Shown: piece by piece, positions 3,001 through 42,600 of the stretch
Layout: each line of letters opens with the position of its first letter
Numbering within the stretch: the stretch's first letter is position 1
NCBI GenBank assembly: GCA_947568835.1
Contig: OX387602.1
Coordinates: forward strand, 26,463,021-26,527,020
Direction: 5' to 3'
Length of the DNA: 64,000 nucleotides
DNA from: Protonemura montana
Lineage: Eukaryota > Arthropoda > Insecta > Plecoptera > Nemouridae
Notes under the pieces: model-generated
What the model saw: the letters and a program-made list of their open reading frames with translations, nothing else
Database searches by the model: none
Told to the model about the DNA's origin: nothing
Program-made: the position numbers and the translations under genes

Positions 3001-6000
3001 TAACAAGGCAAACTTGGTATTGCAGAAACAGAAAGCCAAACGGCGACAGACGTGGTGTGACACTAAGTCGTTTAAGCAAGCACGCAAGTCTGCTGGCTCG
3101 CTGGGACCCACTCAGCTTTGGGCGCTGCAATCTATACAAGAACAAGACAGCATTGGTAGCGGCAGCACGGAAGACAACGTGGATTGGTTATCACCATCCA
3201 ACAGTGATAATTTCCAGGGTAAATTCACTTCTGTCTACCGTAGAACTCAGACCCTTGAACTTCCGTAACTAACTATAGTGGCAGAATTTCTTGCTAGTCT
3301 GTTTGATTCCATTTAATCTTCACATTCTATGTTTTTAGACGAATTTCTGACATCACCAGTGAATTTTGCAACTCCACACTGTGCATCTGATTTTGTGACC
3401 ACACGGCGTGGTACTGGTAAGAATTTTGAAATGATTGAATTAGATTATTTTGTACCTATTCTGAGATTATCGCAATTAGTACCAGACTATTCTAGGTTGA
3501 TTTGGTATACTTTAGTTAGCCAATCAACATTTCTCATATCACATGTTCTTTTATCAGAAATCTTAATTAAATTTAGTAGACTTGTGTGGAATTAAATGAA
3601 TATTTATTATCCACAGGCTCTTGTTTGTTAAGTGTTCATGTGGAGACTCCTCCTACCCTGCTGAGAGAGAAAGCCAACACTTACTTTCAGGATCTGAAAA
3701 GTCTCCAAGAGCTAACCGTACATGAAAAACAAATCAACCAAGAAACTTTGCTTGAGGTAATTGTGACATAAAACTTACCAAGGTTATCATAGGCTCCTCG
3801 TTACAATTATACCTCCTTGAGGGAACTAATAGCATTAGTGTTTCAAGCATGATAGGATTCCAAAATTTCTAGAACAACTGCCCTCAAATTTTGGTACGAG
3901 ATGCTTGAGTTCATTATTATAGTTGCTGATTTTGTTATTTCTAGAAATTAAAACAGGCTGAAGCTGACAACGCAAAATTAAAATTGGAGTTGTCACAGTT
4001 GGAAACATCAAGATTTGAAGTTGAATACGAACAAGCAAAAAAATTGGAAAAGTCCCAGCAACGAGTAATCGAGCTGCAAAGCAGCCTTGAGGTAAATCAG
4101 GGATTCTAGATGGAAATTTTGTTTTTTTCTGCCCGTTGAGAAATGTGTACACGGATATTTTAATTTCTTACATTATTCCTCCTCCAGCAATTTATTTATA
4201 ATAAATAATATTACACTTGTCTGTGAGTATGTTTCCCAAAAAACTGCATCCTATTGTTTCTACAGTTTTAAAGATTTTCTTTCAAAACTTTTTGGAATGT
4301 TCAAAAAAATGTGTATATACCAGAATCTTCCTTTTAATTCTTGATAATTTGTGTATATTATCATGAATTCAAAAAAAGATAGGGCAGATCTGGCATTTGG
4401 GGCTCCAGTGGAGGGGAAATCCAAAACCTTGTTTAGTGCAAAACATGATGCGAGAGCAATGCTTTTCGTGCGTGACACTTCACATGGAGTGTGCAAGAGA
4501 CGGGGGGTTGACAAAGGCACTAGGGGCAAGCCCCTGGTATTAAATGGTACCTTTCACCTGCATTATTAGGCACCTGCTTATGGTAATGTCCTAATTCTGT
4601 ATGTACTTGGGTGTGGTGCAATCCAGTAATTGTTTGTGTACCGACTAGTAATGGCTGTTTTTTTTTTTTTTTTTCAGAGTGCTTGGTCTTCTCAATCTGG
4701 TATAGAAAATCAGTCTAGGCTCTTGGAAACGGAAAATAAGGCGTTACTCTGTAAAATGGAACTTATGGACCAGGTTGAACAGAATAGCTTCGGAAAGGCC
4801 ATAACAACAACTCATGGTGATCACTGCAAGGTGGATGCACGTCCAGATATGTTGGATCGTCACAAACAGTCATTGCTAAATGAAATTGTAGCCCTGAACC
4901 CAAAATTTGAAATGGCTGATGCAGCCAATGCTGACGTAGAGGAATTATTGAAGTTACTGCTTTCTACAGTCACAGAGAAGGAATACAGTTTTTTCACAAA
5001 TTTGACTGAAACATACGATTCTAAGGAAAAAATATGCAGCAATGAAGTAAATTCGTTGAAGCAGAAAATAGCCGAACTGGAAAAATTACTTGTGAATTTA
5101 CCAGAATGTGGAGAAATGGGCGACTCAGAATTATCCGACAATTTCAAGTCGCAGCTTGCAGTGTACGATAAACAGCTTGAAGAGAAACAAATAACAATTT
5201 CAGAGCTGGAACTGAAACTCATCGATGCCCAGAAACATGTTTTGCAAAATTCTAAGCAGATTGAAAGTCCCTCAAGCAAGGAACTGTTGAAAGACAAAGA
5301 TAATCAAATCCTGGAAATGCAAGCAAAGCTGCAGGAAAAGATGGTGTCTATCTCAGAGCTGGAATCAAAGCTTTCCAAAGCTGATGCTTATGGTTGCTCA
5401 CGTTGCTTTAGTCCAGAGATAACCTTAAAGGTAAAAGATTGTCTGGAAAATTCAGAAACTAATCAGGAAGAAAAGTCATCATTTGCGCAACTGTCTCCCA
5501 CCTTTCATGAAGTAAGAGAGAAATTTACAGAACTGCATTCTCAAGTCGGTCCTCTTCATATAAGTTTTACTCCTAATGTGTCAGTTAGTGTTGAACATGA
5601 ATCTGTTTCTGCCAGTACCCTAAGATTGAGCTATGAAAAGATCATCTCTGAACTGCAGGCAAAGGTTGAGAGAGCTGAAGCACAGGTAGAGACATGTGCA
5701 ATTGAGACTCAGACTGAAATCATCACGGTAGAGCAGAGCATTTCCACGGAAGTTTGTGATCCGTCCCATGACGACAAAAATATTATTCAAGAGCTAGAAA
5801 TTCAGTTGGAAAAAACTTGCCATGAGTTAATCTGTAAACAAGATGAAATTCAAAGCATGCAGGCATCCTTGACTGACAAGTGCCTGATCAATGAGTCTCT
5901 GAGAGACAAGTTCACTAAAATTGATACTGAATTTAAATCGTTGGTAGAAAACCATGAAGCTGTTGCTAACAAACTTCGTGATACTGAATCAGAATTGAAT

Positions 6001-9000
6001 GCTAAAAATCAATCCATTGCGTTCCTCGAAACTAAACTTCAAGAAAACTGTGTTGCTACTGATGATCTGATAGATAATCTAAGCAGTTCCAATAAAAATT
6101 TAATTACAAATTCAGAAGCAAGAACATTTTTAGAAGATCAGCTGATTACAGTAAGGGCAAGTTTAAAAGCCAATTTGGAAGATAATGAAAAATTGCAGAA
6201 GACCCTGTTTGAAAAAGCACTGATGGTTGAAGTACTAGAGAGCAAGTGCATTGAACAAGAAGCCCGTTACCAAGAGCAATCTGCACGTTTTCAATTGCTA
6301 GAAGACCAACTACACAGGGTCGAGACTGACTTGAAAGCCAGTTTGAATGAAGTCTTCTCTCTTCAGAATGATCTGAAGGACAAGAGTAAGCTTGTTGACG
6401 AGCTTCAGAGTCGAGCAAGCGAGAAGCAAACCATCATCGACGCACTTGAAACGAAACAAAAATATTTTGATGTTGAATTAAATAAGAGCTTAGAAATTAT
6501 AAGAAACTTTGGAGAGGATCGTAAAAAACATACGACTGAGATCCACAGTATGCAAGAAAAATTAGAGAAGCTGGAAAGTATGGAAATGAATATGAAAATG
6601 GCCGAAGAGATTGACCAGGCTGCTACACAACACCAAAGGGAAACGAAAGATTCTATCGAGAGTGTTTTGAATGAGAAATTAGACATTATTGAAGAGATTA
6701 CCAATAGAATGGAAAAGCAGCAGATGTCTATAGAAGAAAACAAAGCTGTTGTTCAATGTATAAAAGAGCAAAATGATCGTTTTGAGAAAGAATTGGCTGT
6801 AAAATTAAATGAAATAAAGACAATGAACACTCTTATTGCCGAGCAGAGTAAGTGTTTGTCAGAAAATGCCCTAACAATTCGACTTTTGGAAGAGAAGACA
6901 AGTTTGGAAGGATTGAGCCATGAAAAGATCATCTCTGAACTGCAGGCAAAGGTTGAGAGAGCTGGAGCACAGGTAGAGACATGTGCAATTGAGACTCAGA
7001 CTGAAATCATCACGGTAGAGCAGAGCATTTCCACGGAAGTTTGTGATCCGTCCCATGACGACAAAAATATTATTCAAGAGCTAGAAATTCAGTTGGAAAA
7101 AACTTGCCATGAGTTAATCTGTAAACAAGATGAAATTCAAAGCATGCAGGCATCCTTGACTGACAAGTGCCTGATCAATGAGTCTCTGAGAGACAAGTTC
7201 ACTAAAATTGATACTGAATTTAAATCGTTGGTAGAAAACCATGAAGCTGTTGCTAACAAACTTCGTGATACTGAATCAGAATTGAATGCTAAAAATCAAT
7301 CCATTGCGTTCCTCGAAACTAAACTTCAAGAAAACTGTGTTGCTACTGATGATCTGATAGATAATCTAAGCAGTTCCAATAAAAATTTAATTACAAATTC
7401 AGAAGCAAGAACATTTTTAGAAGATCAGCTGATTACAGTAAGGGCAAGTTTAAAAGCCAATTTGGAAGATAATGAAAAATTGCAGAAGACCCTGTTTGAA
7501 AAAGCACTGATGGTTGAAGTACTAGAGAGCAAGTGCATTGAACAAGAAGCCCGTTACCAAGAGCAATCTGCACGTTTTCAATTGCTAGAAGACCAACTAC
7601 ACAGGGTCGAGACTGACTTGAAAGCCAGTTTGAATGAAGTCTTCTCTCTTCAGAATGATCTGAAGGACAAGAGTAAGCTTGTTGACGAGCTTCAGAGTCG
7701 AGCAAGCGAGAAGCAAACCATCATCGACGCACTTGAAACAAAACAAAAATATTTTGATGTTGAATTAAATAAGAGCTTAGAAATTATAAGAAACTTTGGA
7801 GAGGATTGTAAAAAACATACGACTGAGATCCACAGTATGCAAGAAAAATTAGAGAAGCTGGAAAGTATGGAAATGAATATGAAAATGGCCCAAGAGACTG
7901 ACCAGGCTGCTACACAACACCAAAGGGAAATGAAAGATTCTATCGAGAGTGTTTTGAATGAGAAATTGGACATTATTGAAGAGATTACCAATAGAATGGA
8001 AAAGCAGCAGATGTCTATAGAAGAAAACAAAGCTGTTGTTCAATGTATAAAAGAGCAAAATGATCGTTTTGAGAAAGAATTGGCTATAAAATTAAATGAA
8101 ATAAAGACAATGAACACTCTTATTGCCGAGCAGAGTAAGTGTTTGTCAGAAAATGCCCTAACAATTCGACTTTTGGAAGAGAAGTCAAATTGCTATGAAA
8201 AGGACCTAAAGAATAACTTGGAAAAAATAAATGAAGCCACTTGTCAATTGGAACTACAAGGGAAGTTGTTGGAAGACAGAGCAAACGCTATTCTAACACT
8301 AACTGAACAACTTGAAGAGGCAAAACAAGATGCTAAAGACATGGATAAAGAAAATGATTATTTAGAAGCTCTATTTAGAGAGGCAGAGGCTAGAGAAAGA
8401 GTGCTTGAAACTGACATGGAAACGCTTCACGCAGAATTGGAAGAGAAGTCAAATTGCTATGAAAAGGACCTAAAGAATAAATTGGAAAAAATAAATGAAG
8501 CCACTGGTAAATTGGAACTGCAAGGGAAGTTGTTGGAAGACAGAGCAAACGCTATTCTAACACTAACTGAACAACTTGAAGAGGCAAAACAAGATGCTAA
8601 AGACATGGATAAAGAAAATGCTTATAAAGAAGCTCTATTTAGAGAGGCAGAGGCCAGAGCTTCGTTAGCCGCTGCAAGGGCTGATACGGATAATCTCAAA
8701 GCCGAGATCACCAAATATCAAACCTTAGAAAAGAACCTTTCCGACGGAGAAAAACAGCTCGCCGCTTTGCAACAGGAAAATAAATTCCTAAAAGAAATCA
8801 TTGAGACGACAAAGTGTGAAAAGAGAGAGTTACTTAAAGAACTCCAGAGTTTGAAACGATCTCCTTGTGAATGTAAAAACCTCAAAGCTCAAGTAAAAAC
8901 ACTCTTGAAAGATGTTGAAAGAACAAACCTAGAATTGGTCCAACGTAATGGAGAGTATGCCCAACTGGAAATACAGATAATAAAAGAGGAATTCCCGCAA

Positions 9001-10557
9001 AAGGCTATAGCAGACAAATTAAGGAAAGAAAATGAAGAAATGAAGATCAAGATCAAGACACTTAAAGCTGAACTGCACAGAATTCAGGTAAAGGTTTTAT
9101 TTTAAACTACTATTCACAAGTACTTATGCGCTTGTTTTCAAAAATTTATTCCAATTGAAGAATGTTAGCTGAGTCATGGCAAGAATACATTTGTAAATGG
9201 CTGTAATGGCTGTTGTTTTGCTGGCATTGAAATAATGCAACCTAGAAATGTCTTTTGGTGCTTATTGGAATTACCTTTTGAACTACCATATCTCCTATCT
9301 CCTAAGATAACTATTTTTACTTGTAGGCACAGATGCCAGACGAAACAATGAGCTTTTGCCCGAGCTGTCTTGCAAAACCTAGGACCGCTGCAAAATTTGT
9401 ACAGACAGAACTTCCGTTGAAAATTGTAACTGCTGATGCTGCCAAATTACCGGTAAGAGCACGTTATTCTGCATTCGGCATACTTATTTTTATTTATTTA
9501 TTTATTTTTTGTACTAATATGTTGTATTTACCTTCATTTGTTCCTGGTTCCTTATTGTACCATATTTAAACCAATAACCATCTTAGCTATTTACCATACG
9601 TGGCTCCTATTTCTGAAATTTTGATAAGGTGCCAAGAGGCTAGATATTTGCTGTAGCTAAGAAGGAAAGAGATAGGAAGCGTAACTTACTGGAGAAGAAA
9701 ATTGGCTACGCGTGGTGCACTTGTCGAAAAATTTCTAAAGTTTCTGAGAATAATTGCAATTTGGTGTAAAAATTCTTGGAAATACTAGAAATTTCTCGAG
9801 AAGTGCATCATGCGATGCCGATTTTCTTTTCCACCACGTTGTCTCCCTCTCTTTTCTGCTTCACTGCAACAAATTTTTCTGAAATTGTACAAACTCGTGG
9901 TATTTTTATCTTAATTGGTTGATCCCATTGACTTTTTTCCATTGGGTCCATTTGTTTTGTTGTGGAAATATGAAGTTCCCTTTCATTGAGTGCACTTGGT
10001 GCTTGCTGGCTCTAACGTGAACAAATAATCAGTTTATTTTTATGAACATTAACCATCACAGATGAGTGATAAGCATAGCAAGCTAGAAGCTTAGAAAAAC
10101 CTTCAAATCACTAGCTCCAAAAAATAACTCGTGTATATATATTTATTTTTGATGATTTTAAAATCTGAGACTGACTGCTAATAGGCTCATAGATACCATG
10201 CATCTTTAAATATTTATTGGCCTTAGCCCTTATTGTTTAGTCTTGGGTTTACTTTTCGAATTTTACATTATTATTCTATATGTTCAAGTCTGTTGTCACT
10301 GTCAAACATACTTTCAACTCATCTTTAAATGGGATCAAGAAATGCACAACTTTTCTGGAAAAATATTAAAAAAAAATGTCTTTCTCTAGGAAAATAGATC
10401 CGAAGAAATGCAGCGTCTGCTAGGAAAAAATCAGCTGTACAAAAGGATAGCTCATGATCGCATGCGGTATATTATAGAGCTGGAAAAAGAGAAAGAATCG
10501 TTGGTGCCAGGTTTTGTATCGAGGTACGTTGTGGGCGAGAACAAAGAGAACAAGTGA
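2..10557 (+). CDS. CENPE: Kinesin-7 motor, CENP-E-like (5' partial)
   Basis: Kinetochore-associated plus-end-directed kinesin that moves and holds chromosomes on spindle microtubules. Exons read: 2-74, 158-269, 1145-1379, 1683-1870, 2004-2129, 2431-2548, 2789-2914, 3026-3218, 3339-3416, 3617-3756, 3945-4091, 4678-9087, 9327-9452, 10390-10557. They give 2079 codons in one open frame; the first motor residues lie outside the window. Motor signatures: P-loop GQTSSGKTHTM (split by the first intron), switch I NDRSSRSH, switch [10 protein letters not shown], and [12 protein letters not shown]. The [10 protein letters not shown] neck leads into a very long coiled coil, almost all in one 4.4 kb exon. 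CENP-E is favoured over other kinesins by the motor motifs and by the length (human protein about 2700 residues). The last exon is read through to TGA at 10555-10557; a GT at 10524 could instead be a donor. AATAAA at 10638 may be the poly(A) signal. Confidence 0.9.
270..1144 (+). other. CENP-E intron, 875 bp
   Basis: This intron lies between the LDREFLLR and ISYIEIYNE motor exons. The join is directly collinear with kinesin motors, so no missing exon is expected. It is AT-rich and I saw no repeat or coding signal. Confidence 0.7.
5624..8184 (+). repeat. 1274-bp in-frame tandem duplication inside CENP-E exon
   Basis: Copy 1 is 5624-6897 and copy 2 is 6911-8184, separated by 13 bp, so the period is 1287 bp (429 codons, in frame). 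By eye I count about nine base differences between the copies, giving more than 99% identity. Both copies stay open in the coiled-coil frame. Each begins near GATTGAGC and ends with TTGGAAGAGAAG. The near-identity points to a recent duplication, gene conversion, or possibly an assembly error. Confidence 0.95.
8173..8659 (+). repeat. 264-bp tandem duplication (88 codons) in CENP-E coiled coil
   Basis: A second in-frame duplication directly follows the large one. Copy 1 is 8173-8436 and copy 2 is 8437 to about 8659. Both start with TTGGAAGAGAAGTCAAATTG and encode a segment around [10 protein letters not shown] and [14 protein letters not shown]. The copies differ more than those of the 1.27 kb repeat (for example CQ versus GK and DYL versus AYK), so this event looks older. 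Confidence 0.9.
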
Positions 10558-13015: not shown

Positions 13016-14677
13016 ATGAGTTCTGTAAGTAAGCTTTGGTTACATTTATCTTAAGAACGACTGCTTTTACAATCATTCAGGCTGGGAGTGATTTTAGGCC
13101 TATTCCTCAGCCTTGTGATCAACACAGCAACAAATCACAAAAATCTCGTCTTTAAACTCTCCAATTTGTTCGAGTGAAATTATAACGCAATTAAGCTGAA
13201 ATGTTTTCCAGATGACCGATTGCATATATTTTCTGTGTGCCCCTTGATTCCACTCATCTTGTGCATGGGGCAAAGAGCTAGGTAGTTGCAATCTTACTAT
13301 ACACTAGCATAGTTGCCTAGGAACTAACTTTACACGTTTTAATTTGCTACCAATGCTCCCTCGAGTTCACCTATTTACATGTGATAAACTAGTCTCGTTC
13401 ACAGCATTGAGGAACTGTGCTTCACAGCGTAGCTCATTATATGTTGCAAGTAATGGAATGGAAGTGGCGGAGCTTTTGTCATTGTTTAAAAAACCACACT
13501 GTGCTCCAAAACTTCACCCCTTTTGTTAACTAACTCGTAGGTTTTTTTTCCCCAGATATCCAACGTTGAGAATTTGTCCCCTCAAATAATTCGCAGAATT
13601 GTAAAAGAAATGAGCGAGCTGGCGACAAAACCCCCGGAGGGGATTAAAGTTTCCATAAACGATGAAGACGTCACAGATATACAGGCGTCAATTGATGGGC
13701 CTGCAGGCACTCCCTACACTGGGGGAGTTTTCCGAGTGAAACTAGCCCTAGGCAAAGATTTTCCGCAAGCACCACCCAAAGCCTTCTTTTTAACTAAAAT
13801 TTTTCATCCTAATGTGGCTAAGAATGGTGAAATATGCGTAAATACATTAAAAAAAGATTGGAAACCTGACCTTGGTATCAAGCACATACTTCTCGTAAGT
13901 AACCAATGTTGACATTTTACCTTGTGTGTTGCATTTCTTTATCCAAATAACGTTTACGTTTTGTTGATTGTAGACTTGCTTGCTAAAATATCCTTTTTTC
14001 AATAATTCCAGACTGTGAAGTGTTTGCTGATTGTGCCAAATGCCGAGTCGGCCCTAAATGAAGAAGCCGGGAAACTTTTGTTAGATCAATACGAGTGTTA
14101 CTCTCAAAGAGCGAGAATGATGACTGAGATTCACGCAGCGGTAAGTTCCTACTGAACCTCCTTTTCTTGTTCCTATATGAGGGGTTCTGATCATTTCTTA
14201 TTTTCAGTCCCATGGTTGCATTTAGTTATGTCCCCTGCTTTGATTTACAGTATTCGAATTTGAATCTGACTAAAATCATGCCTCCTCATAATAACGTCTC
14301 CTACCAATGGCTAGTACTGCACTCATAAATTGGAAATCATGTAACATGACATTTTTCAAAAATGTTACTGTTTTTAGGATAACTACAGCATATAACTTTC
14401 AAAAGTTTTTTAACCACTCCCCTCTTTATCCCCCCCCCCTCCCCCCTCCCCACCCAATTATTGGGGACAAAAATATTATTATCAAGTTTATGTGGGATTA
14501 TTTTTGTTTGTTTTTTCCTTACAGGCTTCCAAAGTCACCAAATCATGTTCTGCAGATCTTGGGTCAACGTCGTCAGCGGAAGGGCCCCTGGCAAAGAAGC
14601 ACGCGGGAGACAAGAAAATCGCGGCTGATAGGAAAAAGCTAATTAAAGAAAAGAAGCGAACGTTAAAAAGACTATGA
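13016..14677 (+). CDS. UBE2S: Ubiquitin-conjugating enzyme E2 S
   Basis: The E2 that extends Lys11-linked ubiquitin chains on substrates of the APC/C during mitotic exit. Exons: 13016-13024 (only ATGAGTTCT), 13556-13894, 14012-14140, 14525-14677, giving 209 residues (human protein 222). The predicted start MSSISNVENL matches the family start MNSNVENL, which supports the 9-bp first coding exon. The UBC fold shows [13 protein letters not shown] with the catalytic Cys after the HPN motif, and [13 protein letters not shown] as in other UBE2S. The C-terminal tail is Lys-rich and ends KRTLKRL*, close to the Leu-Arg tail that docks UBE2S on the APC/C. The extension after the UBC fold separates it from short E2s. 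The gene follows CENP-E on the same strand, 2.5 kb downstream. Confidence 0.95.
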
Positions 14678-16245: not shown

Positions 16246-19200
16246 ATGTTTAAATCTTTCAGCGAGATCCGAGATGTAGTGTCTGTTATTGTTCATTGTC
16301 CAGAAGAAAATTCATACTTACTCGTTCAAGACGGGACTTCTTCAGAACTTTGGATTTTATCTACAGTGTTGCAGTCAAACTCAAATTGGCGGGCTGCGGC
16401 TAGAAAGCTTTTAAAAGAGGTAAACCTGGCTATTATGTGTAATTGAGCGTAATTATTTAGCATTGACCTAAAACCATTTAAGCTGCTGCATATTCCTGAA
16501 ATGGCATTCACTCACTTTTTCGTCCAATGCAAAATGTCAAGTGTGACAGCAAGATTTCATTTCATGCCTTAGATTCTGACACTGGAAACAACTTCCGAAA
16601 ACACGGTAAAGCTGTATAGATTGTGGCTGCCGGATAATGGCCAATTTGTATTACACATTGTTTTCTCTGCATCAGTTTCAGTAGAAGACAAGAGGAAGGT
16701 CAAAGTATCAAATACTTTCAAGGTACCCTTGTTCGTCATTATATTATTTGGCATAATAATTTGGCATTAAATATTTTGTGGTACAATATAACAATTACTC
16801 TGCAAAAATAAAATTTTAAAATAACGATAGTAAAAGAAAATATTTTGACGGATCATTAAAATTTAAATTGATATTTAACAAACTTTCAACACTCTTTACG
16901 TTGTCTTGCAAATTTAGGCTCGGTATAAATTACGATGGGTGACAAACCGCGAGTTGCCTCGTTTGGGTAATACAGAAAGTCTCAAGTCCCAAGAAATTGT
17001 GCACATAATTGCATCGATAAGCGGCGCTGTGTTAGAAATTCCTCGGTCAAAAGGCTACCACCGCAGCTCTCTGCCCCAACCTTCTCAGTCGTGGACTGAC
17101 ATCATTGAGCACGATATGAGGGAAGTCTTGGTGGAGGTTACAGACAAACACTTGTTTGTTCTCGACAAACCTGGCGATAAACTGGCAATTGTTGCTGCAC
17201 GGTCACCGTTTGATCAGCTCATTTCAGGGGCTGGGTTCACTTTGATAGGTATGATTTTCATTTTGTCTACAAAAATTGTTACCTTTCTATTTATTATGTT
17301 TCAAAGACTAAGGTAGCCTAAAGTCGTTTATATTTCTGTTGCCAATTCATGATTGTACCTTCCCCAAGGATAAAATGTGGCCCAAGCATCTGCAAGCGTA
17401 ATCTATGGTAATATGTTGATTCTCTTTTTTGACTATTTTTTCAGACCAAATATCTCTTTACAAAGAGTTCTTATACCGATCTTTTCCAAGCATGTATATG
17501 AGCAAAGAGTGTTTTGCCGAGTTTTGTGCAAGAATAAGTTGGCCAAAAGAAGGAATACCAAATGCATTTCGGTAAGGTGAATATTCCAAAAAGACAAAAT
17601 AATTGCGTCTGCGATCGTGATGTCAAGTCGGGAGTAACTATAACTCGTTTTCACCTCAATGGGTTCATGCCACAGCTATGTGAAAATTACACATTCCAGG
17701 GCAGCAGACATTTTTGACAGAGGCTGTTTATCGTTTCGAGATCTCCTCTACTTCGTAGCTGCCATTGAGCCGAGCACTCCGCACGGAGGGGTCACAGCGG
17801 AACTCAGGTGCCGATACATTTTCCGCTACTTCGACAAAGATTACGATGGTAAACTAGATTCCAAAGAGTTGCGAGAGCTAATTGCACAAGTAAAGAAAAC
17901 AAAGGACGAACCAACTGACGCTGCCGCTGTTAACAAAGAGACTGAATCGCAACTGAAGTGAGGATGAGTACATGAAAAAGTACCCACTGTTATTTATAAA
18001 AAGTGATTAGCAATACATTTTAAACCGTATTATAGGAGTATTGGACTTCAGGCGGATGCACAATTAGCATTGACAGACTTCCTTCATGCAGTCGGAGAGT
18101 TAAAATTTCGTGGCACCTCTCTTGTGTTGAGAGCTCCTACAAGCATGAAGACGCTGTTTAAAGATGCAAAGTATGTGTCGTTATATTTGGAAGCGAAGAC
18201 CTGGGGGTTACATTAGGGTTGACCAATTAACCTCGTTGTAGAGAGGAGGGTGGCAAAGGCGATCTGTCCCGGGCAGCTCCAAAGCAAGCGACCGTAGGAA
18301 GCAAACCATCTAGTGCGGCTGCCTCATCTGCACCAGCAGCAACTGCACCTGCCGCAGCTCCTGCCAGCGCAGCGGGCATGCAACGTTCGTGCTCTGCTTT
18401 CACGCACTTCTTGCCAATTATCCACCCTTTTCTGACTTAGATTTATTTGCCTTTTTTTGCCTGCCTCTTTGCCCATTATGGGTGGAACGTTACATCCCTT
18501 TCTTGCCACAATTCGGGAATGACACGGGCAATGTCCAGTTCTTGCCACATAATGGCGAGGTCAAGAATGGTTCTTGAGTTTGGCTTCTATGGAAGGGGAA
18601 GCAACTATTTTATTTGGCGTAACAGGGTCTTTACGTTGAACCTGAAATACAAAAAATGGTCTATTAAGGTGTTAAGTTGAACTCCAAAAAAGCAGCATAT
18701 TTCTCCCAGGGAAGAACACAGGAGTGCAGCCTGCTGCTGTGGCGGCCGCGGTTACGGCGGCGGCGGCTGCACCAACAGCCTCTATCAAAGTTGACAACGC
18801 AGCCGACTTCACTTTGGCGGCTCACTGTGTCAAGCTAAAAAAGAGTGGCACCTTCATCGACATTGACCAGCTCTACGACATGTCAGGTAAGATTCACAAA
18901 AGTTTTCAGGAAAAATTAGTTGTTTGAATATATTCAATTGGTTTTGCTGATTTTGTTGGAGTTGACCAACAATCGAAATGCAGCGGCTGTGTCCAAGTCT
19001 ACGACCGACATCGAGAAGACGCAGCGCGCGATGCGACTGCTTTCGGATGTAACCTTTGACCCCAAGTCTCCAGCCAACGAGCTGCTGACCGGACTTAAGT
19101 ACTTTGGCCAGGCAATACCGGCATCTACCAAACTCGGTGCCAAGAAGCCCAAGGAAGCCTATACCTGGGGCCAAGTCGACAAGAACGGCTTTGCCAAGTG

Positions 19201-20817
19201 CTTGATTACAGTTTGCAACAATGCCAAGACCTTGCTGAAAGCAGAGCCAAGACTTTTGGAAATACCCACTCCAGCATATATATTAGGTGGGCCAGGTTGC
19301 ATGCAAGAACTTATCTTTTACTGAATAATGTTAACTTTCTAGGAAAGTCACAATTTTCATGAAAAGTTGAGTGTCAGTAAACTTTCCACAGAAAACGTAT
19401 GCTGTTTTTGATGTCTTTTAAAATATTTTGTTTTCGTCTTTTCAAATACACATACCTGAGACAAAATAGATGGAATGGAAAATCAATATGAGTTTATTTA
19501 ATCCCTATAGTATAAATATACAAAGACGGTATTTTCTCTGGCCGGGTCTTGACAAATGTTTCGCAATCATTGGACGGCTCGGTAGGCGACTTCCACGGCA
19601 ACTTCCCTGATCTGATGAACTTTGAGCGGATCCTGTGGCGTTTCGGTCCGTCACTGTCTCCCGGCACCCTGCTCTTCCTGGGGGATTATGTCGACCGTGG
19701 GCCGCACGGCATCGAAGTCATCAGCTACTTGCTGGCGCACAAGGTCCAGTGTCCACGCAAAGTCAAGCTCTTACGAGGAAACCATGAGACACGGGACGTG
19801 CAGAAAATGTTCACTTTCCACACGTACGAGCAGCTTTTATTTCACTGCCTTTTATCGTTAAAAATCTGTGTGGTTCACAGTGACTATATTTATGCCCCTA
19901 ATCTAAACAATGTAATTTTGAAAGATTTTTGCCATCAGCAATATTGGGCAGTAGCTTGCATTGGGGTGAGAACGTGGGTATGCTCGAACACAATTTGGTA
20001 AACGTAATTTTTAGATTATGTCTGAAGTTGACCAACTAAACCACTCGTAGTTGAATTATATCCTCCAGCTTTGTTTTGGAAACACCTTGCTAACATTTGA
20101 ATGAGTATGCACCACATACCCATCATACCCTGGCTGCACACCCCTGGTATTGGGTATCCTACCCTTCCTCACAACCAACCCCACCGAATTTCTCCAGGGA
20201 ATGCATCACAAAGTTTGGCGAGGAGAAAGGCCTGGAGGTTTGGGAAGCGGTAAACGATGTCTTTGATGTGATGCCGATCGCCGCAACAGTCGCAGACAAG
20301 GTGACTAAGCCCTTCACAAATGTCCCAGCCACTTGATCAAACCCACAATCCCTCCTGTCCCCTTGTTGCATTTCAGGTATTCTGCTGCCATGGTGGCATC
20401 CCCCCTCCATGGCTGTGCCCGGTTATTGCGGCTATCAACTCTATCCCAACGCCGTTGCCGAACCCAGACTCTCAGAGTGCCCTGGCATGGGAGCTGCTCT
20501 GGAACGACCCGGTTCGCGCAAAAATGACCGACAATATGGCCATGGAGTTGCTAGCCAACGAGGGTTTTGCAGTTAATGCACGTCGTGGCACTGCCCACGT
20601 CTTCAGCGGGGACGCGCTTGAACGCTTCCTGCGCATTAACAATCTGGCCTACGTTATTCGCGCTCATGAGGTGGCGCAGATTGGGTTCCAGATCCAGCAG
20701 AAGGGAAGGCTGCTGACCGTGTTTTCGTCATCACGCTACTGCGGGGGCAACAACGAGGCGGCTTGTGTCTTGGCTGACCAGAACAAGCTGCGGTTCTTCC
20801 GGCTCGAGCAACAGTGA
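16246..20817 (+). CDS. Composite protein: Nudix-like, EF-hand and PPP phosphatase
   Basis: Exons: 16246-16419, 16573-16722, 16918-17248, 17445-17571, 17700-17957, 18036-18170, 18242-18384 (end uncertain), 18710-18886, 18984-19286, 19586-19823, 20198-20300, 20377-20817, giving 859 residues in one frame. Residues ~6-150 look like a Nudix fold (strand YLLVQD, helix WRAAARKLLKE, then YKLRWVTNRELPRL) but lack the Glu-rich Nudix box. Residues ~220-335 resemble recoverin-like calcium sensors, with one canonical EF loop, DKDYDGKLDSKE (306-317), and a degenerate hand before it. An Ala-rich linker spans ~405-470. The C-terminal third is a PPP Ser/Thr phosphatase with all metal and catalytic motifs: GDFHG (600-604), GDYVDRG (632-638), RGNHE (663-667), CHGG, RAHE and YCGG. 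Calcium-regulated dephosphorylation is an inference. PPEF/rdgC phosphatases carry EF hands C-terminally, so this order differs. The start at 16246 is the first in-frame ATG; a 3' splice site at 16262 would offer an alternative. Confidence 0.8.
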
Positions 20818-21632: not shown

Positions 21633-21660
21633 CCCCCCCCCCCCCCCCCCCCCCCCCCCC
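21633..21660. repeat. Homopolymer run of 28 C
   Basis: Twenty-eight consecutive C residues, followed by ACCCTCCC. Its true length is uncertain because such runs are poorly resolved by sequencing. Confidence 0.9.
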
Positions 21661-24600
21661 ACCCTCCCGTCATTGATAATTTAACACATTCCAAGGGTAT
21701 GGTTCATTAAAGTGGTCGTGAATATTTCACCCTCCGTCATTTACGTCAAAGAAGGAACACTTGTGGTCAATTCACGAAAAATTCTACCTCCTACACACCT
21801 GACGCCACGGCTGCATGTAGCCAACCCAAAAGCCGATAACTTTGCTTTCACTCTCCAATTTTTTTCACTGAAGACATTAAAATTTTTTCTAACACATTTC
21901 TTTTTAACACTGTTTAGGTGTCATCAGGACGCCTTTTCACACAAAACGTTCATTGCTTCTTTAATCTAGGGGTTTCCCGACTTCTGTCGCGTCTTCCTCC
22001 TGCGTGGGCTAGCCTAAAAAATGTCTGTGCAGTACAACGCTTTGTTATGTCAAAGCCTTAGCCTTTTATTCAATATTCAAATTTTATACTTGTGTCATAT
22101 GCGTAATCTCGATTACTTCAATTATTTCACGCCCAGGCCAGCACTTGAGCCTCGTCATGAATGAATATGGTGAATGAAAAGTATGTCACCACCGACAGCT
22201 TATTTCAGGAGCATCCGGAATACAATACTTTCTCAAGTGCGAGCCCGGCCGCCCGGCCCTACCGGCTGGTTTCCAAATAACTCGACAGCTTCTTTTCCTG
22301 AGCGATCCAACCCAATCTCTCTGATCTTGTCTCACTCGACTATCTCTGCTCGGCTGCTAATTGCTTCCACTTTGAGACCCATTCATAAAACCTTTGCGAT
22401 GACTTGCACAGACAAATTAATGCACCTTCCAGCACAAGTGGGTCACATTCTAACTTGCCTGCAATAAAAACGCACAACGAAAAGACATTTGGTCTGCACT
22501 CCTACCTGAAAATTGCAGTACTGGAAACCAAAGAGTGCATGATGGTTTTTTACCGGTATCGATTAACATTCCTCTAGCATTTCTTTGCAGACTACCGTTT
22601 CCAGAGATCATTTAAAGAATAAAAATTCTTGTCAGCCGCGTGTCCGCTAATGCACCATCCGACCACCACATGGCATCTACTAGGTATGGGTATGGGTACA
22701 GATTTCTCCCACCTTTTCGGTGCAAGCGCCCTCATAATTCCCGTCGCCCCCGAGGCAAGGTCGTTGTATCCTATCGCCGACGACATTCAGTTCCGGCTGG
22801 CACATTTCTGGGCCAGTATCAAGCGGCTTGTCGAAAAGAGATAGCATGTTTCGATGAAGAGTTGGAGACTAGAGAGCTGGATTGACCAAGCCGCGCTCAT
22901 CGTGGTGGGAATCGAATCCGCTTCCGTGGTGCTGCTTGAGCTCGCGGGGTGACCCCACAAGGCTGACCTGACTCAAGCGAGCCAGAAAGGTCGACGACTC
23001 CAGGCAACTACGCATGCTACGAGGCAGTGGCAGTGTCTGCAAGGAGCTATCGTAGAAATAATTCTTTCGAACGTGGAATACCATCAACATGCAGACTGCC
23101 TGCATGCATGTTGCTTTAATGTAATGATGATGATAAAATCATGCTCGTTTTATAGAATGGCGCATTTGCATCTTGATTCATGTTGGTGTCCTACTTGGCT
23201 GATTGTTGCCGCCGCTCGCATCACGACATCGCTCAATACCTTCGTGCATTAAAGGAGCTTCCGAGTTCCGGTTATAGACCAGATACACCCACGTATGTGG
23301 GAGCGTAGGTATACCTATGCCTACGCTTAGCCAGAGAGATTGCGAACTGGAGTACATCATACAGAAAGCGTGTTCGCGCTAGCGGCCTGACGGAAGGAAT
23401 GCAGACGAAATTAAAATACGTGCCATGACTGTAGAAGTTCAAGTTTGTGAAGAAAACGACAGCCTCTTGCAGCGCAGTGCATTTTGGACGTTTTGCCTAG
23501 CGTCAACGGAATGAATTCGTGATCACGGTTTTCGCAAGTCATTATGTTCGAAAGACGAGGTCTTTGAAAGCCTCCAGACATCCCTTGACGCCTCGACGTC
23601 GTGGTCCTCGGCACCCTTAACATCGCTCTCCCCTGGTTGACGTTGTCGTGTCAATCACCCCTTCCGCCACTCCAGAAGACGGTTTCTCTCATTTGCGTTC
23701 TCGGCTGGTTATATTTAGCTCGAAATCCGGCTATTGGGGTTACGTCACGTAGTTTTTCGTGAAAGTGGGTATGCCATTGGCAAGCAGCAACGACGGCGAC
23801 GGCTGTCTCGGACCCGCCGTACGCAGGGGCGGCACGCAGCGTAAGGTTGGTGGCCGAGATTGCAGACGGATGTGCCAGTGAGCCGCCGCTAGCGGCCTTG
23901 GCTTCGACGTGCAAGATCTAGGTCAGGGTCTTGCCTAGTGTCTCGTTCCCCACGTGCTGCCGGCGACTCTGGCCGGACCCCCGGTTGGGATCCAGCTACG
24001 CAGACTTGTGCTACAAGATCGATGAACTCGGAGGAAATCAGGAATTCTATCGCGCGGCCTCCACTCCCCCACAAGCAAGGCAATGTGCTAAGACGAGTCC
24101 TTAGTAGTCTTGCTGGGAAATCTGGTCTTAGAGTAATATCTGGAACCGAGTAAAGGTGGTTGCTACAGACTTCGCGTAGTTAATTCCCGTGTAAAAAGTC
24201 CTTAGCTGCCCGGATATTCCAATCCGTCACAGATAGGCTACCGGATTCATCATATAGGCGTACAGTACGAGAGAAATTCTCTATATCCTTGTCGAGTTTG
24301 GATTGGTCGATGAGACCAGGTGAAGATGTTACATGATTGGTGCAATTAGAAAGTGTTAGTGTCGCGAGCGGATATCGGCAATGGTTAGTACGGTGCGAGC
24401 TTTGCGTACGGAGGCATCGCGCCGCACGGGACACTGAAAACTGCATAGCCACGCACGGATAATCTCTAAAAAATTGTGCGCACAAGTTTTACACGAGTGA
24501 ACACAGTGCGATTTTCAGTGGGCATTTCGACATTCCACGGACGTCGTGCATTTGTTTTGTTAGGCAAAGGAGTTCGGAGGTATTCGGATGACATCAGACG

Positions 24601-26660: not shown

Positions 26661-27845
26661 TCATTTGGAAGCATCAGCCGCTGCAGAATGTAGCAAAAGG
26701 TCTTCGATGTGCTCCACTATGGTGTCGACTTCGGCCATGGCCCCGAGCCCCTTGTCCCCACACATGAGGGTCTTGGCGATGCAAGGCACCTCCCGGTAGC
26801 CCCATGCCTTGAGCATCGCCACTTGTGTGCCGGTGATCGGGTGGTCCCACATGCGTGTGTTCATCGCAGGGCAGAACAGGAACGGCTTTTTTGGGTCCCA
26901 TGCGCGAGCCGTGCATGTTAGTAGGTTGTCACAGATGCCCTTAGAAATAGACATATCAGATGGAATCTTGAAGTAGTATCATAGGGCCAGTAGCACCATC
27001 AGCTCAAATATAATTTGCTTAAAACATTGATTGGAAAATCAGATATGATGTAAATTTTCTGCTTCTTTACTAACATGCCCTAAACAGGAAATGGCTTGGA
27101 ATATAGTTAAATTCATTTGCAAATTCTTTCTCTACAGGACCTTATGTGTGTACATTTTCGAAGAGTTGTTCCTTAATTTGACAAAGGCCCTTTGTACCAA
27201 TAATGCTCAACCACTGATTAAATATATCTTTAAGAATATAACTTGGCAATTTGTCACAATCTGCATCTGTGAATTGAACTGGGCTTTGCAAATTTAGCTA
27301 CATGGATTTTTAGCAAATAGATAAAGAGGTTAGTGTTTTTTTTTCATGTTTTGTGCATTAATTGAACTTGATTTTCAAAATTGAAAAAGGGTTCAAGGGA
27401 TTAATTTACCACACATTAACAGTAATAATGCTGCATTTCTTAAAGATTCTGAAGTTCTTCTAAATTTATTCAGTGTTCCAAATTATTATGGATTTTATGC
27501 CAGTCCCATTTGCGCTATAGGCACAATGCAAATTTAAATTACCTGTGACATTTTAGCCAAAGTGTTAGCATCTAGTGGGGCAATCACAAATAGGTCTGCC
27601 CACTTTCCAAGCTCTATGTGAAGAACAGGATCACCTCTGCCTGACCATGCCATCCACTCGTCTTGGTCCACAAAGATTTTAACACCATCTGGTATTTCTT
27701 CAGGAGCAAAAAAATGTCGCGAATGTTCGGTCACAACCACACGAATATTGAAATTTATCTTGTTTGAGAGCAATGCTCTAATAAGTATAGGTAGCTTTAT
27801 AGTGGCAACGCTTCCAGTGCAACCAATTAAAATATTTGTCTCCAT
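26661..27845 (-). CDS. PPCDC: Phosphopantothenoylcysteine decarboxylase
   Basis: Flavoenzyme of coenzyme A synthesis that decarboxylates 4'-phosphopantothenoylcysteine to 4'-phosphopantetheine. Two exons read on the minus strand: 27543-27845 and 26661-26939, joined at a codon boundary to give 193 residues (human about 204). Family motifs: the start METNILIGCTGSVATIK with the FMN-binding GxTGS-like loop, PVLHIELGKWADLFVIAP carrying the conserved His, ANTLAKMSQGICDNLLT, and PAMNTRMWDHP, the substrate-clamp PXMNXXMW motif. An in-frame TAA 15 nt upstream supports the ATG at 27845. It lies 88 bp downstream of COX19 on the same strand. Confidence 0.95.
26940..27542 (-). other. PPCDC intron, 603 bp
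   Basis: Donor CAG|gtaatt at 27543/27542 and acceptor ctaag| at 26940/26939. AT-rich; no other feature seen. Confidence 0.8.
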
Positions 27846-27933
27846 TGTCTTCTCTTGATTTTAACTTCAGAATCCCCTTAAAGTAGTAGAATCTACTAGC
27901 ATTGAATTTAAACTTGTTCCAAATTATATGCAA

Positions 27934-39602: not shown

Positions 39603-42600
39603 CTATTTTATCTCCTCTTGTAGAGATACTATACTACCAAAAACCTCTTCCTTAGACCGGGAGTTCTTTCGAGAATGATTCGCAAAATTAGTTTGTCTCG
39701 GGATCTCACCGAAGAAACTTGACTCGAACCCGCGTTGGTTATAAACGTCAGCATCTTTGCCCGCAGACAGCGGTATGTATTCTGCCTCTGGAGCAGCTAC
39801 TGGAGCAACGATTTCCTGAGTGACGGGAGCGACTACAGCCTCTTTATTTCGCGACGGAAAAAGCGCGGTTTTCAGGCTCTGAATGATGGTTCTGGCGGTT
39901 CGTTTGGTGGGGGACTCATTGGAGGGCGCGATGGGAGGTAGCGGAGCGGCCGCAATGTCGAGCGAGTTTGGAGGAGGGCCAGTTTTGGTTGTCAGCGGAG
40001 ACAGCGACTTGGGCGTCCCAGAGAGCCTCTCCTCGTCCCCAGACCCGCGGTACAAGTCCTCAATGGACATCGTGCTCTCGAAAGACTCAGAAACCGACGA
40101 CGGGGGCCGGAAGCCGGAGCCCGGCGAGTGGAGCAAGTCTCTCTCCGCTAGAGAGCGCGTCAGGTCGCGTCTATCTGGCAACACGAGAATGTTATCTCGC
40201 TCGAAAGAGGTGTGCAACGAAGAAGTTCTTCGAGTCATGTTTTTAGACGCGGACATTATTGAGGCAAAATCGCCACTAGGCGCCGTCGAGGTCCGCCGCA
40301 GGGATGGCGTTCGCCGGCCGCTGGTTGAACTGTACAAAGCAAAATATACCAATGATGGACGAGGCGGGTCATCGGCAGACTGCCGTAAGGGGCGGACGAT
40401 CACTTACTCGGGAACTTCCTTGAGCTTCGCGTTCCTGCGGCTGGACGTACTCTCAGCCGAGCCCGACCCGGCAGAACCCGGTGCGGTCTTTCCATTGTCC
40501 CAGGAGTTGTTGCGTCGGTGGCTTCTCTCTCGGTACGTGTCGGCTATGTTGTTCAGGCTGAAAGAATTGCAGACGTTCGACTCTGGTCCGACAACAAGCT
40601 GCAGTGCCCCATGAAGTTTGTGTTCCAAAGACATGACATGCGTCATATCCTTTCATATTGCTACCTACCTTGAGCCAATATTTCTTTTATCCATTTCTTT
40701 CTGGATTGAATCTGGTATTCGATGAGGAGGTTTTACGGACATTCTTCCATCCAATATTTCCTGCTAAAAAAACAAAACATCCGTTTTTCAACCAATAGCA
40801 ACACCGTGCTCACGTGCATCATTTGATTGCTTTAAGTCTTATCACACCCTTTCTAAATTTGGGTGATTGCCCAGAGGCAACTCAGTTTTAAAGGCTCTTT
40901 TGAAAACTGAAACCAAACATTGAAACACTTGAAATTAAGCATATGTTAGCTCAAAAGAACAGCAAATTATCCGCTCAATTAAACTTAATGTCAATGTTAT
41001 CTTTTTAAACTGTTCGATATCTGCAAAAATCTTCTTAGTAGTCGGTCGAGCGTCGCGCTCTTGCATTTAGTTACCTTGAACTTGGGTCCCGTTAGCGAGG
41101 AGCCACTGGAGGTGTGGTTGGCACCTGTAACGCTTCCGTTGACGCTGCCGTTGAGAGGGTTTGTCCACACGTTGGTGGAGGAGAATGCGTCCGTGTCGGT
41201 CATCGACATGTTCAGCATCTCCGCGGAGTAGGTGGGCCGCGCGGGGATGATGGGTGACCGGCAGCACACTCTGCTCACACACACACACACACACACGAGG
41301 GGTGGTCATCTTGTAAATTGTGTTGCCACTTATTCGCAACTAATACTCAATTATAAATCGAAAGTGACGAAGTGAGAACGATTTGGATTCAGTAGACTCA
41401 ATGGTTAGATCAGCAGATTGTGATTTTCCGTTATTTCCCAATACCACAGGAAATATATGTTCTGTCATGACAAGGGGCCCAACTAGTTACCTAACAGAAC
41501 TGCCTATTTAATTTCCATCGTAATGATTGACAAGCCCGACCCTGTCAGACAAGCCACGACTTCGGAGTATCTAAATTCTAAAGCATCACTCTTATGGCTT
41601 AGGCAAGAGAAAAAAGTTGATGCTATGTCTAATCTTCTACGGTTAAGCTACTTTGCCCCTGGTACACAGATTAAAGCGATGTGACCACGACTCACGAGTT
41701 GACGTCCTCCAATTTCTTCAGCAGCCTCTCATTCTCTCGGCACACAAGATCTTGGTCCCGAATGAGGAGCTCTCGCGTGGTGAATAGTTCCGAGTTTTCC
41801 CGCCGCAGCGCTTCGTTTTCCGTGAGGTAGTGCCGCACAAGGTCAGTGAGTTCGGGACCTTCGAGTTCTGTCAGTTTGTCCAAGGCCACGCTGGCAGGCG
41901 TCGTCAGGGCTAGGCGACCTGAGTGCACAGTGGTGCATTTCAGATAGTTATTCCTACCCATTCTGTCATCAACCAGCCACTTGGGTGAACGAAAGGGTTA
42001 ATAAACATTTTAGTTTTAGCCTAACCCTGAAAATCTCGCGACTAAAAAAGCGAAAATCTTGACATTCGGAAATGTAGAACGACTAAATTGCTTGTTTGAG
42101 AAAATATAAATTCAAACACAGCTTCCTTTGCGGTTAACATTGGACGGGTGTTGGTGGAAACGAGTGTCATTGGGATTTGAAATCTGATTCATCATGGCGA
42201 CTCTGGAAATCAACGTTTGACGAGGCAGCCATTTCTCACCCAAGTTCTCCATGTTGTTCGCCGGCCGTCCTGCCTTGTCCACGCCCGGTTCGGAGTTAAT
42301 GTGCAGCGCCGAGCGCAGGTGCTCATTCTCGTTCTGCAGCGCGTTCACCTCTCGCTTGAGACTCAGGATGAGCGCCTCGCGAGGGTCCATCACCACGATC
42401 GGCTTGGTGCGGATCTTCTTTGCCCTCGCTGCGTAGCGCAGAGTATTGATGGTCTCTGTCACGTTCGACCGCGCAGGGGAGATACATGCAATCTGCAACG
42501 ACAGAAAGACTTGAGTGACCTTTACCGTGGCAGCCAGACGTTCCCTAACTAACTCGACGAGGAGGCCAGATATTTTATCAAAGTTTCAAACGCTTTGCCA

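Follow-up and report, generated by a model that had tools for sequence, protein, structure and literature searches.

The window analysed here is a stretch of 64,000 nucleotides from the plecopteran insect Protonemura montana (contig OX387602.1, positions 26,463,021 to 26,527,020), and the gene in question occupies positions 16246-20817 of it on the plus strand. On balance, we favour the reading that the product of this animal gene is a Ser/Thr phosphatase of the PPP family, 859 residues long, which carries an EF-hand module in front of the enzyme, lies outside PPEF, and is a relative or a parallel of the EF-hand-bearing Bsu1-type PPPs. In the reconstructed gene, the order of an N-terminal domain without family assignment, EF-hands, an Ala-rich hinge and a phosphatase is real on paper. 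The protein is excluded from the PPEF clade, and a separate PPEF-like locus is present in the same genome.

Gene model and domain order

The gene was rebuilt from 12 exons, with all 11 introns of the GT-AG type, and the exons join into one frame of 859 residues followed by a stop. Exons 1-3 (16246-16419, 16573-16722 and 16918-17248) encode the N-terminal domain (residues 1-218), and exons 4-6 (17445-17571, 17700-17957 and 18036-18170) encode the EF-hand module (residues 219-391), which has matches in Pfam and the PDB. Exons 7-8 (18242-18384 and 18710-18886), on either side of the contested intron 18385-18709, encode the Ala-rich hinge and the segment that follows it (residues 392-498), and exons 9-12 (18984-19286, 19586-19823, 20198-20300 and 20377-20817) encode the phosphatase and the stop. 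The translation start is well bounded because an in-frame TAA lies 18 bases 5′ of the ATG at 16246, with no AG acceptor between them. Furthermore, all of 5000 first-order Markov simulations of the exons, which preserve dinucleotide composition, were interrupted by stops (on average 33.4 in 300 simulations), and the other two forward frames of the real joined exons contain 38 and 31 stops.

Pfam EF-hand families match residues 297-366. With the module scanned alone, EF-hand_7 reached 33.6 bits (5e-8; cut-off 30 bits) and EF-hand_6 an E value of 4e-7; with the whole protein scanned, EF-hand_7 scored 27.3 bits, under the 30-bit cut-off. A pattern scan located a canonical Ca2+ loop, DKDYDGKLDSKE, at residues 306-317 (17833-17868, plus strand). 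When the module (a 180-residue query) was compared with the PDB, a calmodulin-like chain ranked first among the best 60 of 331 matches (2.9e-7, covering a single hand) and a calmodulin/calcineurin B fusion second, with GCAP1 aligning to query residues 38-149 (9.4e-6) and neurocalcin to residues 6-147 (8.3e-5). By alignment, the module appears to be four-hand-like. The original prediction had called it similar to recoverin and the neuronal calcium sensor proteins, and the wide alignments of neurocalcin and GCAP1 fit that description, but the calmodulin-like chain outscores both of them.

The PPP family is defined by the motifs GDxHG, GDxVDRG and GNHE (PMC2175518), and the protein contains all three, at residues 600, 632 and 663. 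Pfam Metallophos matches residues 597-812 (E = 1.5e-29), and the full set of five motifs is present: GDFHG, GDYVDRG, RGNHE, CHGG and RAHE at residues 600, 632, 663, 716 and 807. By their roles in PP1, we take D601, H603, D633, N665, H666, H718 and H810 to be the metal and catalytic residues, and R637 and R783 to form the arginine clamp. Among the best 60 of 92 PDB matches of the catalytic domain, the best single-stretch match is BSU1 (9tp7; 175.9 bits, E = 7.9e-51), which aligns to residues 575-846 (19211-20775 on the plus strand, introns included); PP1 (4.5e-47; PP1-beta, 162.6 bits), PP2A (2.1e-42) and calcineurin (1.5e-41) come next. Together, these results bear out part of what had been predicted for the gene, namely a twelve-exon frame of 859 residues (regained at its exact length), a single canonical calcium loop, an Ala-rich hinge between the EF-hand module and the phosphatase, and a phosphatase with intact motifs.

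The first domain fared differently. It had been described as Nudix-like, and we find no sequence support for this: residues 1-218 have no match in Pfam up to E = 10 and no credible match in the PDB by phmmer. Residues 1-150 were also aligned by hhalign to a profile of 11 Nudix proteins, seven of them enzymes from E. coli and four chosen among ten Nudix loci in the insect's own genome. The score was 12.63, with 200 shuffles averaging 11.30 (standard deviation 2.13) and 50 of the 200 reaching the real score. As a control, the profile is weak for divergent members, since in leave-one-out runs 9 of the 11 true members were recovered at a probability of at least 93%, and two others, L195 (MRPL46-like by eye) and L191 (IDI-like by eye), at 80% and 2%. 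The Nudix identity was dropped, as it has neither Pfam nor PDB support and a profile score like that of shuffles. In the best alignment, RAAARKLLKEI stands opposite the Nudix box in the register expected for a box that has lost its catalytic glutamates. Because the alignment sits in this register, residues 1-218 may possibly adopt a degenerate Nudix fold.

The hinge intron

It is unlikely that exons 1-7 form a gene for an EF-hand protein and exons 8-12 an adjacent gene for a PPP phosphatase, the two being joined only on paper. Two properties of the hinge intron point that way and count against a single gene. Its donor, AAC/gttcgt, ranks last among the 11 (−3.46 on a generic metazoan matrix), and a fraction of 0.32 of the GT sites at 16-21 kb (n = 274) score at least as high. 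The GC content at third codon positions also steps up at this intron, from 0.31-0.48 in exons 1-7 to 0.61-0.73 in exons 8-12. Met 438, where exon 7 ends, and Met 497, within exon 8, are both possible starts for a separate phosphatase, and a two-gene split therefore keeps some probability.

Set against this, no stop interrupts the frame as it passes into and across exon 8, the frame of this exon, open from 18676, contains no ATG before Met 497, and neither AATAAA nor ATTAAA occurs in 18170-19000. The composition step need not signal two genes because the GC content of the window climbs overall as well, reaching 0.50 at 22-24 kb after 0.36 in the initial 16 kb. Furthermore, alternative in-frame donor/acceptor pairs at the hinge intron keep the fusion (784-870 amino acids), and the joined frame is thus independent of the weak donor. 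Proteins that combine EF-hands with a Bsu1-type phosphatase are, in addition, already in print (PMC8249667). A single transcript would presumably run across all 12 exons.

Calcium and the N-terminal half

The protein is predicted to be an active, calcium-gated phosphatase, and calcium regulation probably occurs in cis. Ca2+ at the canonical hand would reshape the N-terminal half, and the change could then be passed on to the enzyme by the flexible Ala-rich hinge together with the segment that precedes the catalytic core. The outcome may be altered access to the active site or an altered choice of substrate.

We consider it quite unlikely that the N-terminal half is instead a scaffold or targeting module, with an EF-hand that does not gate and an enzyme that is constitutive. 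What speaks for a constitutive enzyme, and tells against calcium gating, is that the pattern scan found only one canonical loop in the whole protein. The N-terminal domain has no family assignment either. A structure predicted from the 110 residues of exon 3, with no alignment as input, was unusable (predicted local distance difference test score 33.7), which counts against the reading we prefer. Known enzymes provide examples on both sides: the EF-hands of Leishmania PPEF fail to bind Ca2+ (PMC1885993), and Ca2+ dependence is on record for Plasmodium PP7, which has EF-hands in cis and a calmodulin-binding site (PMC11559042). PP7 differs from the present protein in that its EF-hands lie on the opposite side of the enzyme and its Ca2+ dependence has been shown. 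Against a constitutive enzyme also stands the loop itself, which, though single, is fully canonical.

Placement of the phosphatase and its relatives

The catalytic domain is 40% identical to BSU1, 37% to PP1-beta and PP2B, 36% to PP1-alpha, and 34% to both PP2A and PP5; for PPEF1, represented by a provisional and shortened sequence, the figure is 27%. An insertion, GExxGxExW, has its full length only in the protein and BSU1 among the 27 rows of our alignment. It is shorter by four residues in PP1, PP2B and PP5, by three in PP2A and by two in the Lokiarchaeal L087.

We placed the domain with a tree of these 27 rows, which comprise the protein, six archaeal rows, 18 other eukaryotic rows (several near-identical PP1s among them), one row from a metagenome-assembled genome (MAG) and one viral row (L001). 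BSU1 is represented by one sequence only. The PPEF rows are human PPEF1, provisional and shortened, and L184, which was joined from tblastn pieces; L187 (95 residues) was too short and was left out. Topologies were compared in subsets of 13 and 16 taxa, the 16-row set including archaea, with 20000 replicates by resampling of estimated log-likelihoods. Under LG+C20, the approximately unbiased (AU) test was applied to topologies estimated under LG, and the C20 tree carries no support values.

Rooted on the archaeal PPPs, the protein falls outside all other eukaryotic, MAG and viral rows, with an ultrafast bootstrap (UFB) support of 97 (27 rows) or 99 (16 rows). When archaea are left out, BSU1 becomes the preferred partner (p-AU 0.72), with a weak UFB of 51, and pairings other than those with BSU1 and PPEF are not rejected (p-AU 0.13-0.24). 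With archaea, the corresponding p-AU values under LG in the 16-row set are 0.026 for PP2B, 0.026 for PP1, 0.020 for PP2A and 0.013 for PP5+PPEF, and under LG+C20 they are 0.060, 0.074, 0.030 and 0.030. The position of BSU1 is poorly supported in every tree (UFB 51-55).

Three results weigh against kinship with BSU1. With archaea included, the AU test rejects the BSU1 pairing at 5% (p-AU 0.025 under LG and 0.045 under C20), although the Shimodaira-Hasegawa test keeps it (p-SH 0.26 and 0.27). By total PDB score, the calcineurin construct 9b9g, with 142.8 bits full-length and 56 partial, exceeds BSU1. The insertion, finally, is only one residue shorter in the provisional PPEF1 sequence and the Lokiarchaeal L082. 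Because of this near-equal length, it counts for little, and we set it aside as proof of BSU1 kinship.

Two residues are shared with the archaeal rows. The N of WNDP occurs in the protein, in all six archaeal rows and in the viral row L001, and in none of the 18 other eukaryotic rows. A P directly after HGG(I/L) or HAGI occurs in the protein (as HGGI) and in 6/6 archaeal rows, again in 0/18 of the other eukaryotic rows. We suggest, tentatively and with considerable doubt, that the catalytic domain represents an unnamed deep eukaryotic PPP lineage that is older than the split of PP1, PP2A, PP2B, PP5, PPEF and BSU1 and has been kept here as a single gene with a calcium sensor in cis and an unassigned N-terminal domain. 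Long-branch attraction, combined with retained ancestral residues, could be the source of the basal position.

The closest described counterparts, which have been little studied, are the EF-hand-bearing Bsu1-type PPPs that Kerk et al. (2021; PMC8249667) report from Thecamonas, Monosiga, Salpingoeca, Basidiobolus and Nannochloropsis; apart from Thecamonas, the hosts are choanoflagellates, a single fungus and a single alga. The portion of that paper available to us names no animal and does not state the domain order. Compared by description only, this group shares with our protein a PPP with an affinity to BSU1, tentative in our case, and accessory EF-hands without Kelch; it differs in that no animal is named and neither the order nor a further N-terminal domain is stated in that portion. 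The original claim that no described family has this order was therefore too strong, since EF-hand-bearing Bsu1-type PPPs had been published, although that portion gives no animal and no order. Within the parts of the openly licensed literature available to us, we found no animal PPP with EF-hands ahead of the enzyme and no protein combining Nudix, EF-hand and PPP domains. A kinship to these proteins is our inference.

In BSU1 and the PPKL phosphatases, Kelch repeats lie ahead of the enzyme. The present protein resembles them in its best single-stretch PDB match (among the best 60 of 92), in the equal-length insertion and in having an accessory domain before the enzyme; it differs in that no Kelch repeat appears among its 6 Pfam matches up to E = 1, and in lying outside BSU1 in the archaea-rooted tree. 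The sensor of calcineurin is a separate subunit. Calcineurin A/B is similar in joining a PPP with a four-EF-hand sensor, in the FTF after GNHE and in the 37% identity of the catalytic domain, and different in that a calcineurin-like locus exists elsewhere in the genome (L187, part only).

PPEF phosphatases carry their EF-hands after the catalytic domain, often with an N-terminal IQ motif (PMC1885993 and PMC11559042). Like PPEF, RdgC and PP7, the protein has EF-hands and a PPP in one chain; it departs from PPEF/RdgC in that the EF-hand match (297-366) precedes the catalytic match (597-812) in a chain that ends at 859, and from all three in a catalytic domain outside the PPEF clade. A rearranged PPEF/RdgC phosphatase, which the shared chain and the one-residue difference from the provisional PPEF1 sequence in the insertion would favour, is nevertheless very improbable, as the AU test rejects the PPEF pairing (p = 2.4e-4 without archaea and 1.4e-4 with them in 16 rows; 2.6e-8 under LG+C20), a separate PPEF-like locus with its EF region downstream of the enzyme exists in the same genome, the protein starts with MFKS, has no Gly at position 2 and ends 13 residues past the aligned catalytic domain, and the strict IQ pattern is unmatched, with one loose match at residue 653 within the catalytic domain. 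The predicted departure from the PPEF/rdgC order, with EF-hands before a complete PPP, is upheld by the same evidence.

A search of the insect's own genome (258 Mb, 34 contigs) covered 19 Metallophos regions, of which 12 had PPP matches and 7 had none at E 1e-3. The 12 are six PP1-like loci, PP2A, two PP2A-like loci (PP4 or PP6, by guess), PP5, calcineurin and PPEF, and the PPEF-like region runs on into a match to the C-terminal EF region of the provisional PPEF1 sequence (4e-15), which is the usual order. The whole protein gave 33 matches in the genome: 12 are the exons of the gene itself, and the other 21, at other places, are confined to residues 574-846 and do not exceed 40% identity; the N-terminal half matched its own locus only (two candidates in a first look). 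No second copy of the architecture was found in the genome at the sensitivity of these searches. Beside one of the PP2A-like genes (PP4/PP6 by guess), L176 (G000:C5:18546000-18555900) contains a 135-bp unit in about 16 tandem copies, 97% alike, which matches a phosphatase piece (PP2A-row residues 206-238); other arrays in L176 overlap one match each to 5S rRNA and tRNA.

Single-protein scans of public collections found no relatives. A profile (A1) retrieved 93 viral and 132 GTDB relative-encoding stretches. Of the 160 loci retained, the 80 best from either set, 20 were translated and eight entered the trees (the six archaeal rows, L081 and L001). Six GTDB MAG loci (L083, L088, L108, L127, L149 and L150) encode eukaryote-like PPPs behind what is, by eye, an apparent signal peptide. 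Their contigs are labelled Clostridia, Oscillospiraceae and Alphaproteobacteria, and the title of L127 mentions roe deer rumen.

Elsewhere in the window, the gene is flanked by a ubiquitin-conjugating enzyme (UQ_con) at 13541-13909, and two flavoprotein-family pieces lie at 26664-27860 on the minus strand. The end of a kinesin motor, below its cut-off, is found at 42115-42585 on the minus strand. A 1491-codon open frame at 4630-9102 adjoins exons that are kinesin-motor-like by eye (1083-1874); it contains direct repeats 1287 nt (429 codons) apart, reported as 99% identical over 300 nt, and a second repeat pair 264 nt apart. A C run of 36 positions with 88% matches (21633-21668), 0.8 kb 3′ of the gene, is a possible weak spot of the assembly.

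To our knowledge, animals are credited with two links between PPP phosphatases and calcium, through the separate subunit of calcineurin and the C-terminal EF-hands of PPEF. If the reading of this gene as a non-PPEF phosphatase with EF-hands in front is true, it would represent a third way, in which the sensor stands ahead of the enzyme and the catalytic domain lies outside PPEF and does not group with calcineurin. It would also suggest that a type of phosphatase reported from choanoflagellates survived into animals, and the archaeal-like residues of its catalytic domain are relevant to where the eukaryotic PPP family is rooted.

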